From NCBI RefSeq assembly GCF_001422485.1, contig NZ_LMNF01000002.1:569949-633948 (forward strand): a DNA stretch of 64,000 nt, written 5' to 3'. Positions 3,074 to 7,046 of this stretch are shown one piece after another (position 1 is the first letter of the stretch; every line of letters starts with the position of its first letter). The notes beneath the pieces were generated by a model. The model did no database searches and was not told where the DNA came from. It saw nothing but the letters and a program-made list of their open reading frames with translations. The translations under genes and the position numbers were made by a program. This DNA is from Agreia sp. Leaf283 (GTDB taxonomy: Bacteria; Actinomycetota; Actinomycetes; Actinomycetales; Microbacteriaceae).

Positions 3074-4551
3074 AACGGCAGCCGCCATGCATGCGGCGCG
3101 ATGAGCTGATGGATGGCGTTGGGCCCCCAGGTTCCGGGCGCATACAGGCGCACCGGCGGTGGGTCCTGCAGCAGGGTGGCAGACACCTCCCACAGCCTCT
3201 CGATGCCCTCCGCTGTGGTGAACAGCGTGTGGTCGCCACGCATAGCGTCGAGGATGAGCCGCTCGTAGGCCTCGAGCACATCGCCCTCCCGGCCGGTCTC
3301 GTGCAGGGCGAACTGCATGCTCAGCTTGTCGAGCTTCATTCCCGGGCCCGGTCGTTTGCCGTAGAACGAGAGTGAGACCTTCGACGCGTCGGCCAGGTCG
3401 AATGTCAGGTGGTCGGGGCCGTGCGCCCCGACGCCCGAGCCCTGTGGGAACATGCTCTTCGGCGGCTCGCGGAAGGCGATCGAGATGATGCGCTGCCCCT
3501 CGGCCAGTTTCTTGCCGGTGCGCAGGTAGAACGGCACACCCGCCCAGCGCCAGTTGTCGATCTCGCACTTGAGGGCGACGAAGGTGTCGGTGTCCGACTC
3601 GGGAGCTACTCCCTCCTCGTCGCGATAGCCGATGTACTGTCCGCGCACGACGTTGTCGGGAATGAGCGGCCGCATCGATCGGAAGACCTTGTTCTTCTCC
3701 TCGCTGATGGCGATCGGCTCGAGCGCGGTGGGCGGCTCCATGGCCATGAACGCCAGCACCTGGAAGAGGTGGGTGACCACCATGTCCTTGTAGGCGCCGG
3801 TCGACTCGTAGAACTGGGCGCGCCGGTCGAGTCCGAGGGTCTCCGGAATGTCGATCTGCACGTGGTCGATGAAGTTGCGGTTCCAGATCGGCTCGAAGAG
3901 GCCGTTCGCGAATCGAAAGGCGAGGATGTTCTGCGCGGGCTCCTTGCCGAGGAAGTGGTCGATGCGGAAGATCTGATCCTCGGCGAAGGTCTCGTGGAGC
4001 TCGGCGTTCAGGGCCACCGCCGATTCCAGGTCGGTGCCAAAAGGCTTCTCCATGATGATGCGGCTGCGATCGACCAGCTCGGCCTCGCCGAGCATGTGCA
4101 CCACGCTGAGCGCGGCCCGAGGCGGCACGCTCAGGTAGTGCAGCCGCCGCACGTCGGGGCCGAGCGACTTCTCGGCATCCAGAACGGCCTTGGCGAGCGC
4201 CTTCGGGCCGGCGGACTGAGGAACGTAGCTCAGCTTGGACTCGAAGCGGTCCCACTGATCCGGGGTCAGCGCCCGGCTGCCGAACTCGTTGTAGGCGATC
4301 TTGGCGAAGGCTCGGAAGGACTCGTCGTCGTGTTCCTCGAGCGACGTGCCGACAATGCGGATGTCGGGTGCGAGCGACGAGAGCGCGAGATGGGCCATGC
4401 CCGGGATGAGCTTGCGCCGGGCGAGATCGCCCACCGCTCCGAACAGCACGACCACATGGGGCGTGGTGTGTTCACTGGGATTGACTCGGGAGGGCAGATC
4501 GCTACTGAGGGTCACCGTGCCGATAATGGCACTGACCGGAGCCGAAGCCAA
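3043..4551 (-). CDS. zwf: Glucose-6-phosphate 1-dehydrogenase
   Basis: Oxidises glucose-6-phosphate to 6-phosphogluconolactone, making NADPH for the oxidative pentose phosphate pathway. The NAD(P)-binding motif GAVGDLARRK is near residue 38 and the substrate-binding active-site motif RIDHFLGKE near 195 (RIDHYLGKE in most members). The longest frame starts at a TTG and gives 502 residues; the GTG at residue 23 (VNPSEHTT) is a plausible alternative start and would remove an N-terminus that does not look conserved. It is on the same strand downstream of sigR-rsrA; linking NADPH supply to the thiol-stress regulon is a contextual inference. Family assignment is firm, the start is not. Confidence 0.93.
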   Translation of the reverse strand: MASAPVSAIIGTVTLSSDLPSRVNPSEHTTPHVVVLFGAVGDLARRKLIPGMAHLALSSLAPDIRIVGTSLEEHDDESFRAFAKIAYNEFGSRALTPDQWDRFESKLSYVPQSAGPKALAKAVLDAEKSLGPDVRRLHYLSVPPRAALSVVHMLGEAELVDRSRIIMEKPFGTDLESAVALNAELHETFAEDQIFRIDHFLGKEPAQNILAFRFANGLFEPIWNRNFIDHVQIDIPETLGLDRRAQFYESTGAYKDMVVTHLFQVLAFMAMEPPTALEPIAISEEKNKVFRSMRPLIPDNVVRGQYIGYRDEEGVAPESDTDTFVALKCEIDNWRWAGVPFYLRTGKKLAEGQRIISIAFREPPKSMFPQGSGVGAHGPDHLTFDLADASKVSLSFYGKRPGPGMKLDKLSMQFALHETGREGDVLEAYERLILDAMRGDHTLFTTAEGIERLWEVSATLLQDPPPVRLYAPGTWGPNAIHQLIAPHAWRLPFERAWRDKKK

Positions 4552-4612
4552 TCGTCGGATGCGGAGTTTAACGCCGCCGAAATCTGCCGTTCATGTGGCA
4601 GAGGGCAGCTGG

Positions 4613-4855
4613 CTAGTGCGTGGCCTGGATGGTGCGGATGGAGAGAAGAACCTGGTCGCGCAGATCGCCCGGCGCGGTCTCGCGGCACGCGCGCTGAACC
4701 GCCTCGGTCAAAACCCGCCCGACGTGCAGCTCGGACTCGCAGTCCGAGCAGCCGGCGAGGTGTTCACGGATGTCTTCTGCATCGGTCGAGCACAGCTCGT
4801 TGTGCAGATACTCCTCGAGTTCGGCCTTGGCCTTGTCGCAACCGCAATCGGTCAT
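4613..4855 (-). CDS. rsrA: Zinc-binding anti-sigma factor RsrA
   Basis: 80 residues with the ZAS-family metal motif: C6, then H32, C36 and C39 in HLAGCSDC, reproducing the Cys-N25-His-x3-Cys-x2-Cys spacing known for RsrA. In this family the reduced zinc form binds and inhibits sigma-R; disulfide stress ejects zinc and frees the sigma factor. The start codon overlaps the sigR stop by four bases, so the two are translationally coupled, as expected for a sigma/anti-sigma pair. It should be cytoplasmic; no membrane segment is seen. Confidence 0.92.
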
Positions 4856-5562
4856 TTCTTCGTGCTCCCCGTCTTCGCCGCGACATGAATGCCGCGGTCT
4901 GCTGCATAGTCAGTCAGAAGTCCCCGCAGAAGTCGTCTGCCTCGGTGCAGACGACTCATTACCGTGCCGACAGGGGTCTTCATGATGTCGGCGATCTCCT
5001 GGTAGGAGAAACCTTCCACGTCGGCGAAGTAGACCGCCAGACGAAAATCTTCGGGAATCGACTGCAGCGCATCCTTGACCGCGCTGTCGGGCAGGTGGTC
5101 GATCGCCTCGGCCTCCGCCGAGCGGCTCGACATGGCCGTGGCCGATTCGGCCTCGCCCAGCTGCCAGTCCTCCATATCGGAGATGGTGCCCTTGTAGGGA
5201 TCGCGCTGCTTCTTGCGATAGGTGTTGATGAACGTGTTCGTCAAAATGCGGTACAGCCACGCCTTGAGGTTCGTGCCCTGTTCGAACTGGGCGAAGGCCG
5301 CGTAGGCCTTCACGAACGTCTCCTGCACGAGGTCTTGCGCATCTGCCGGATTGCGGGTCATGCGCAGGGCGGCGCCGTAGAGCTGGTCGAGGAACGGTAT
5401 CGCCTGTTCCTCGAACAGGTCCCGGGGATCTGAGGTCGCCGCGGGAGTGGTGTCAGGTGTGGGAGTGCTCATCAAGCCTGAGTCTACTTCGGAGAGGGCG
5501 CGTTCGGCCCAGGCCATGCCCGGGCGGACGACGGTCGGTCGCACCAGCTGCTCAGTCACCAC
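4852..5562 (-). CDS. sigR: ECF sigma factor SigR/SigH (thiol-oxidative stress)
   Basis: Group IV sigma factor. Region 2 is represented by [21 protein letters not shown] and the [19 protein letters not shown] segment; region 4 by [17 protein letters not shown] and the following [24 protein letters not shown]. Two starts are credible. GTG at 5562 has a perfect AGGAGG seven bases upstream and gives about 236 residues. ATG at 5472 (MSTPTPD) gives 206 residues but has only a weak Shine-Dalgarno. In Streptomyces a stress-induced longer sigma-R isoform from an upstream start is known, so both may be used. It lies directly upstream of rsrA, with a sigma-R-like promoter ahead (see separate entry). Confidence 0.9.
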
Positions 5563-5622
5563 CTGCGCTCCTCCTGTGCCTCTCCGTCGTCGATGCACCC
5601 GCTCGGTGCCCGTACGATCAAC

Positions 5623-5649
5623 AACCGCGATGGGAACGCGGTTTATTCC
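5623..5649 (-). promoter_or_regulatory. Putative sigma-R-dependent promoter of sigR
   Basis: Read on the minus strand, GGAAT (5649-5645) and GTT (5625-5623) are separated by 19 bases. This matches the GGAA(T/C)-N18-19-GTT consensus of sigma-R/SigH promoters, about 60 bases upstream of the long sigR start. Positive autoregulation of sigR is established in Streptomyces and Mycobacterium. The element is also within 50 bases of the divergent aroA start. Confidence 0.6.
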
Positions 5650-5672
5650 GTGCTCGCGGTAATCTGGGGGCA

Positions 5673-7046
5673 ATGGGAATCATCAGCCAACTCGATCCGC
5701 GTTTCTCCCCCTACGACGATGAGACGCCAGGGGTCGCCTCCGTGCCGCCGGCGGACTCGCCGTGGCCGTCGCCGACCGCCACCGGTCCCATCGACACGTC
5801 GGTCGTCCTTCCCGGCTCCAAGAGCCTGACCAACCGCGAACTCGTGCTGTCGGCGCTAGCCGAGTCGCCCTCTACTCTTCGGGCTCCGCTCCACTCGCGC
5901 GATACGTCTCTGATGGTCGATGCCCTCCGATCGATGGGCACGACGATCGAGGCCGTCTCCGGCGCCGGGGATTTCGGCGACGACTGGCTCATCACGCCAG
6001 CGGAGGAGCTGCTCGGAAGCACGACGGTCGACTGCGGCCTCGCCGGAACCGTCATGCGCTTCATCCCGCCCGTCGCCGCCCTGGCGCTCGGTCCCGTCGT
6101 GTTCGACGGAGACGAGGCCGCGCGGCGCAGGCCCATGTCCACGACCATCTCGTCGCTCCGCTCCCTGGGCGTCGACATCGCCGACGACGGAGCGCGATCG
6201 CTCCCCTTCACGGTTCACGGCACCGGTCGCGTCGCCGGTGGCGAGATCGTCATCGATGCGTCGAGCTCCAGCCAGTTCGTGTCGGGCCTCCTCCTGAGCG
6301 CGAGTCGCTTCGACGACGGACTCGTGCTGCGCCACTCCGGTGAGCGGGTGCCGAGCCAGCCTCACATCGAGATGACGATCCAGGCGCTGGCCGCCCGCGG
6401 CGTCGAGGTCGAGCAGCCGCAGCCGGGCGTGTGGACCGTCGCGCCCTCGCGCATCCGGGGCCTCACCGTCGACATCGAACCCGATCTGTCGAATGCGGCA
6501 CCGTTCCTCGCGGCGGCCGTCGCCACCGGCGGTCGGGTCAGCGTCAGCGGCTGGCCGTCGAGCACCACCCAGGTGGGCGCACTGCTCGCCGAGTTCCTGC
6601 CCCTGTTCGGCGCCACCGTCACCCAGGCCGACGGAGTGCTCACGGTCGAGGGCGACGGGTCGATCCACGGAATCACCCTCGATCTCTCCGAGGGCGGCGA
6701 GCTCGCCCCGGCCCTGGTCGCCCTGGCAGCGCTGGCCGACTCCCCCAGCGAGATCACCGGCATCGGACACATCCGTCACCACGAGACAGACCGCCTGTCG
6801 GCCCTCGCGGCGGAGATCAATGGGCTCGGCGGCTCCGTCACAGAGCTGGAGGACGGCCTGCGCATCGAGCCGGCACCGCTGCACGGCGGAACGTGGAAGA
6901 CCTACGCCGACCATCGCATGGCCCATGCCGGCGCGATCATCGCCCTCGTCGTTCCCGACGTTCTGATCGAGGACATCGCGACCACATCGAAGACGCTCCC
7001 CGAATTCCCCGAGCTCTGGAGCGCGTTGGCCGCGAGCACCTCATGA
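5673..7046 (+). CDS. aroA: 3-phosphoshikimate 1-carboxyvinyltransferase (EPSP synthase)
   Basis: Sixth step of the shikimate pathway: joins phosphoenolpyruvate and shikimate-3-phosphate. 457 residues, normal for the family. Signatures: [18 protein letters not shown] near the N-terminus (PEP and S3P binding), [11 protein letters not shown], the RRRPM segment, [12 protein letters not shown], and [11 protein letters not shown] near the C-terminus. The ATG at 5673 follows a GGGGG stretch. The stop overlaps the rsgA start by four bases (ATGA). It diverges from sigR across a short promoter region. The aroA-rsgA-hisN order beside sigR-rsrA is conserved in many actinobacteria (known), which supports the calls. 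Confidence 0.95.

Follow-up and report, generated by a model that had tools for sequence, protein, structure and literature searches.

The sigR-rsrA operon of Agreia sp. Leaf283 probably carries two promoters and two start codons for SigR, with the choice of promoter being the choice of isoform and with the long form, by analogy, being removed quickly. The operon lies in the window, by which we mean the whole 64,000-nt stretch of DNA that was analyzed, and consists of the following features.

4852 to 5562, minus strand: sigR long frame, 236 codons from GTG 5562 to TGA, matching TIGR02947 with 305 bits
4852 to 5472, minus strand: sigR short frame, 206 codons from ATG 5472 to TGA, with conserved start and -10 box
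5473 to 5562, minus strand: N-terminal extension of the long form only, 30 codons in an open frame, substitution ratio 0.41
5570 to 5575, minus strand: Shine-Dalgarno (SD) sequence AGGAGG of the long start, with a 7-nt spacer to GTG 5562
5623 to 5649, minus strand: P2, putative SigR-type promoter GGAAT-N19-GTT, a conserved motif predicted to be autoregulatory
5481 to 5486, minus strand: P1, putative SigA-type -10 box TAGACT, within the extension, 8 nt 5′ of ATG 5472
5473 to 5474, minus strand: TG preceding the short ATG, which would serve P1 as YR initiator, with G 5473 as the predicted +1
4613 to 4855, minus strand: rsrA, anti-sigma factor, whose ATG overlaps the sigR stop (ATGA)

The initial annotation had proposed two sigR starts, the upstream one with a well-spaced AGGAGG, and an N-terminal extension of about 30 residues. 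Direct reading bears out both: the spacer is 7 nt, the extension has exactly 30 codons in a single open frame, and this frame runs uninterrupted from GTG 5562 via ATG 5472 to the stop at TGA 4854-4852. A second GTG, at 5559, stands right behind GTG 5562-5560. The sigma factor scores well above the curated cut-off of 251.55 bits of TIGR02947 (SigR/SigH of actinobacteria), while the RsrA product reaches 56.1 bits with the RsrA equivalog TIGR03988, slightly below its cut-off of 62.5, and 28.1 bits with zf-HC2, above the cut-off of 22.2; H-x3-C-x2-C is visible in its sequence. The gene is flanked by rsrA downstream on the minus strand and by a divergent aroA, and the closest named loci, from two Agreia assemblies, share 92-93% identity along the entire long protein.

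We detected sigR in 8/8 genomes of the genus, 144/150 of the family, 194/198 of the order and 240/246 of the class. From the 144 family and 194 order genomes with matches, which are overlapping sets, 182 loci were examined, and the exclusion of two whose anchor failed (L150 and L175) left 126 family loci, including that of the window, and 54 order loci from other families; the 8 genus genomes come in addition to the 182. The class set holds 85 loci, that is, 90 from the 240 class genomes with matches minus 5 same-order duplicates, and a named set of 80 loci, partly repeats of the others, has 73 readable members and 7 without a recognised core pattern. Counts of 125 leave out L138, which has no in-frame ATG, and counts of 123 (family) and 44 (order) leave out loci without a SigR box. 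The short ATG was picked blind to promoters as the nearest in-frame ATG 5′ of the core, and the long start in relatives is the best-SD choice among in-frame starts. As all sequences are related, locus counts are not independent of each other.

Both starts are conserved among these relatives, so the prospect raised in the initial annotation, that only one of them might be, did not materialize. The AGGAGG of the long start is a rare feature: placed 5-9 nt ahead of an ATG or GTG, it accompanies seven of the 1888 such codons on the minus strand of the window and one of the 1725 on the plus strand. When one identical procedure was applied to all frames, a start with an SD match of at least 4 bases and a frame open to the short ATG was present in the sigR frame of 111/123 family loci, compared with 0 and 9 for the remaining two forward frames, and in 22/44 order loci compared with 2 and 3. 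Between the box and the ATG, stop codons make up 41 of 4699 codons in the sigR frame of the family, against 340/4735 and 76/4781 in the other frames; the order values are 5/2071 against 109/2103 and 23/2110. It could be argued that the short form alone is real and that GTG with its AGGAGG arose by chance in a G+C-rich region, as such sequence contains few stops (just those 76 in the 4781 codons of frame 2) and the tail sequence is highly variable; we regard this as highly improbable, given that open SD starts gather in one frame and that both the L-E-R-P-like motif and the substitution ratio described below are frame-specific.

Upstream of the long start, the motif points to a putative SigR-dependent promoter. 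GGAAT-N17-20-GTT was found within 400 nt upstream in 123/125 family and 44/54 other order loci, while the corresponding numbers were 2 (family) and 0 (order) on the reverse strand and roughly 1.5 and 0.4 after single-base shuffling. Outside the order, 64/85 class loci have a SigR box no farther than 520 nt from the core, a count made without a control; in class family f22, only 2/13 loci have the box and 1/13 the spaced -10 motif of the short start. If +1 lies 7 nt past GTT, the P2 transcript of Agreia would begin about 53 nt before GTG 5562. As a separate observation, in the order set (L056, L058, L060-L066 and others) an in-frame ATG or GTG stands exactly 9 nt past GTT in 21/44 loci and an out-of-frame one in 0, suggesting that the long form may be leaderless in those loci.

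The extension evolves like protein. Among six genus members its nonsynonymous/synonymous ratio is 0.41 (0.46 without the last six codons), compared with 1.21 and 1.76 in the shifted frames and 0.03 in the SigR core, suggesting that it is translated and constrained, though loosely. Extension peptides frequently start like MTATAVLERP. An L-E-R-P-like motif is in frame in 47/123 family loci, the five other frames giving 3, 1, 1, 0 and 2, and exact LERP occurs 25 times in frame against 0, 0, 0, 0 and 1; these 25 cases draw on four Leu, five Arg and four Pro codons. The window itself does not have the strict motif, showing LVRP instead, nor do 76/123 family loci, and outside the family it barely exceeds its control (3/44 against at most 2 in the order, 13/85 against 3 and 2 in the class). 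In one family locus, L138, the stretch from the upstream stop to the SigR core holds no in-frame ATG, and the match contains two TAG, so the long form may have been lost there.

At the short start, the 22 nt 5′ of ATG 5472 nowhere match the AAAGGAGGTGAT consensus over 4 or more consecutive bases, and the nearest in-frame ATG has an SD match of at least 5 bases in 0/123 family and 0/44 order loci (11 and 3 loci match over 4 bases). Internal in-frame start codons have an SD match of at least 5 bases more often, in 51/526 and 2/112 cases. What precedes this ATG is a -10 box. At -14 to -9, TANNNT has its T, A and T in 94%, 92% and 93% of 125 family loci and in 98%, 100% and 98% of 54 order loci, and TANNNT-N8-ATG was found in 115/125 family and 53/54 other order loci by the blind choice of ATG, with none at the other spacings from 4 to 12. 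In 9 of the 10 remaining family loci TANNNT-N8 precedes an ATG farther upstream, giving 124/126; the exceptions are L138, L141, where the box is ahead of a GTG, and L179 of the order. The named set, partly the same genomes, has the motif in 73/73 readable loci. Beyond the order it is present in 38/85 class loci, with other spacings from 4 to 12 occurring twice, and it is carried by whole families (f41 12/12, f36 6/6, f31 4/4, f43 4/4) while being missing or nearly so in others (f35 0/9, f33 0/10 and the f22 mentioned above).

The box appears to be kept as DNA. The codon at -15 to -13 is NTA in at least 115/125 family and 53/54 order blind loci, while NTA accounts for 53 of 4699 NTN codons of the SigR core in the family and 10 of 1847 in the order, and this near-constancy of a codon that makes up about 1% of NTN elsewhere argues that DNA rather than protein is conserved here. 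Protein-level conservation was considered as the cause of the box and rejected, since the uncommon wobble A persists although the encoded residues differ. By its motif (TAGACT, 5486-5481), a separate promoter for the short form would thus lie downstream of the long start, and the ATG is best read as a leaderless or 1-nt-leader start because the internal promoter motif stands at a fixed spacing. The poor ribosome site that the initial annotation gave ATG 5472 therefore holds in that there is no SD, but the ATG does not appear to be a weak competitor on one shared mRNA, as it has a promoter motif of its own.

That alternative, implicit in the initial annotation, holds that one upstream mRNA serves both starts, with the ATG as a weak internal one and TAGACT as no promoter. 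It agrees with our finding of no recognisable -35 hexamer, nor a full sigma-70 promoter, at P1, yet it leaves unexplained a box at the single spacing of 8 nt in 115/125 and 53/54 blind loci, its resting on NTA codons, and the fact that short ATGs are poorer in SD than internal start codons, and we consider it very unlikely. In the wider region 4400-5900, we found neither a sigma-70 promoter with both hexamers nor an intrinsic terminator, and no Rfam match at gathering scores (4000-7000) indicated structured RNA between the starts.

Building on the two starts, the two promoter motifs, their conservation and the protein-like evolution of the tail, the mechanism that we infer would run as follows. 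In unstressed cells, SigA RNA polymerase would fire P1 and produce an mRNA beginning at ATG 5472 or 1 nt before it, whose translation without a Shine-Dalgarno sequence would yield short SigR, to be bound by RsrA. Upon thiol oxidation, RsrA would release SigR, which would then transcribe P2, and the P2 mRNA, bearing AGGAGG and GTG 5562, would give long SigR with its 30 additional residues. Promoter choice would amount to isoform choice because an internal ATG without SD should work poorly on the long mRNA. The long form would amplify the response and then, as proposed by analogy with Streptomyces sigma-R′, be subject to fast Clp-type proteolysis via its tail, ending the response. SigR-type boxes ahead of a thioredoxin reductase gene and of one of two Clp_N-containing ATPase genes of this genome fit with the proposed loop, while none was found near clpP1P2 or the second Clp ATPase gene (about 1.5 kb on each side). 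Separately, 26 copies of the strict pattern GGGAAT-N16-20-GTTG were counted in the window's genome (L390-L415), against 0 of the backward pattern, and these 26 sites are candidate SigR targets.

The instability and shut-off, both named in the initial annotation, are modeled on Streptomyces, where the available portions of two papers describe a long form that at first boosts the response and later undergoes degradation (PMC4921905, PMC5472188), the tail being what makes it a Clp substrate in S. coelicolor (PMC5472188). An alternative is that the long form exists but lasts just as long as the short one, with the tail acting otherwise, for example on RsrA binding. The loose constraint on the tail (0.41) is compatible with this, as are the short SigE isoforms of M. 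tuberculosis, made from an internal SigH promoter, for which preliminary results, in the part of the report available, indicate no main functional difference (PMC10027907). Against it stand the half-lives reported for S. coelicolor, about 10 min for the long form and hours for the short form (PMC4921905), and an arrangement of promoters and starts that is alike in outline; we therefore find equal stability unlikely, although less so than a single shared mRNA.

The sigma-R′ parallel drawn in the initial annotation is borne out by anatomy, with a SigR box 5′ of the long start, a protein-like extension and a -10 box inside it. Judging from the accessible parts of the Streptomyces reports (Yoo 2016, PMC4921905; Feeney 2017, PMC5472188), the sigma factor is orthologous by family model, and both systems have a SigR-dependent upstream p2 for the long form and a downstream p1 for the short form (predicted here by motif), an upstream start between the promoters and an rsrA overlap of ATGA. 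According to the same sources, the extension has 55 residues in Streptomyces and 30 here, and the short start is leadered there, with AGGAGGTG and a GTC repressed by IF3, whereas here it is an ATG without SD, with a -10 box 8 nt off; no GTC following an extended AGGAGGTG was found at the Agreia short start. The Streptomyces p1 is also described there as WblC-induced via an AT-rich site, and P1 has no AT-rich stretch. Control of P1 by WblC/WhiB7 as in Streptomyces was therefore left unsupported: A+T upstream of P1 is 30-40% per bin, the longest A/T run is 2-3 bases in 101/124 family loci, and two loci have runs of 7 and 11.

Other systems share single elements, as far as the available sections of their reports go. 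The M. tuberculosis sigE gene also uses several promoters to reach different start codons, one of them leaderless, and makes isoforms of an ECF sigma factor, but its oxidative-stress promoter, P3, depends on SigH, lies internally and yields shorter isoforms (PMC10027907), whereas the SigR-type promoter here is upstream and would give the longer one. In C. glutamicum, whose genome matches the same family model, sigH-rshA also has several SigA-type promoters, but the sigH start sites reported lie 22, 89 and 93 nt 5′ of the start codon, making leadered mRNAs (PMC3489674). Mycobacterial leaderless mRNAs resemble the short start in having TANNNT without -35 right before an SD-less start (PMC3898074, PMC4633059).

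The spacing of 8 sets sigR apart from leaderless-type genes of its own genome, which mostly have 6 or 7. With 33 crude genes, the window was too small for a spacing test, which was hence redone on 464 kb of the window's genome, where 353 genes were crudely called and TANNNT ahead of ATG or GTG was counted within their first third; spacings 6, 7 and 8 occurred 46, 17 and 3 times, and 4, 1 and 0 times in the rest of the same genes. The sigR start, with TG ahead of it, is not one of the three cases with 8, and its spacing is thus off the genome norm. Ahead of the short ATG, YG is present as TG or CG in 109/124 family and 46/53 order loci, and it prevails even though G and C are roughly equal in frequency at wobble positions. 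With the usual distance of 7, a YR initiator would place +1 on that G, giving a 5′-GAUG transcript.

Whether this matters depends on how well such a transcript is translated. The available text of a mycobacterial study reports apparently lower use of start codons at +2 to +5 than of those at +1, with N-terminal peptides for 4/558 and 51/1098, respectively, which its authors call not definitive (PMC4633059). Since +2 to +5 starts seem less used there, we tentatively raise the possibility, which we hold to be somewhat doubtful, that a box at 8 nt followed by YG throttles translation by giving 5′-GAUG, poorer than 5′-AUG, and keeps short SigR scarce across much of the class. A slightly less than even chance can be given to the simpler view that P1 transcripts start at the A of ATG and that sigR is an ordinary leaderless gene whose spacing of 8 carries no particular significance. 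The part of the M. tuberculosis report available gives TANNNT without a -35 motif as the common promoter there and places the centre of the -10 motif 7-12 bp ahead of the start site, a range that allows +1 at the A (PMC3898074), while the genome's norm of 6-7 and the Y followed by G ahead of ATG, instead of Y directly, speak against it. If the throttled 5′-GAUG start is true, it would be an alternative to the Streptomyces GTC and IF3 for holding SigR below RsrA in unstressed cells, and upon oxidation the cell would turn to another mRNA, one encoding the long and short-lived form. If the two-promoter reading is right, sigR would also be a natural test case for the loss of translation from a 1-nt leader.

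The two-isoform scheme of sigma-R and sigma-R′ is already known, and what differs here is how the short form starts. A 2009 paper by Kim on sigma-R isoforms reportedly already says 'in actinomycetes' in its title. In the parts available of the literature matches listed, we found no leaderless short SigR, no fixed TANNNT-N8-ATG and no LERP-like tail start. If our reading of the two promoters is right, promoter firing sets the isoform of a central redox sigma factor beyond Streptomyces, in nearly all family and order loci examined and in part of the class beyond. TANNNT-N8-ATG also offers a simple rule for the true short SigR start, which a start finder favouring ribosome sites could misplace.

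Two further observations concern the neighborhood and the wider class. In class families f33, f34 and f22 (L230, L234, L241 and others), which are without the N8 motif, the extension ends ahead of the core in sequences such as EGV or EVGP, and by analogy with Streptomyces these ends may hold an embedded ribosome site. Next to sigR, the divergent aroA (plus strand, ATG 5673; region 5660-5675) has TAATCT 7 nt ahead of its ATG and so appears to be leaderless too, with 10 bp separating this -10 box from the P2 box of sigR.
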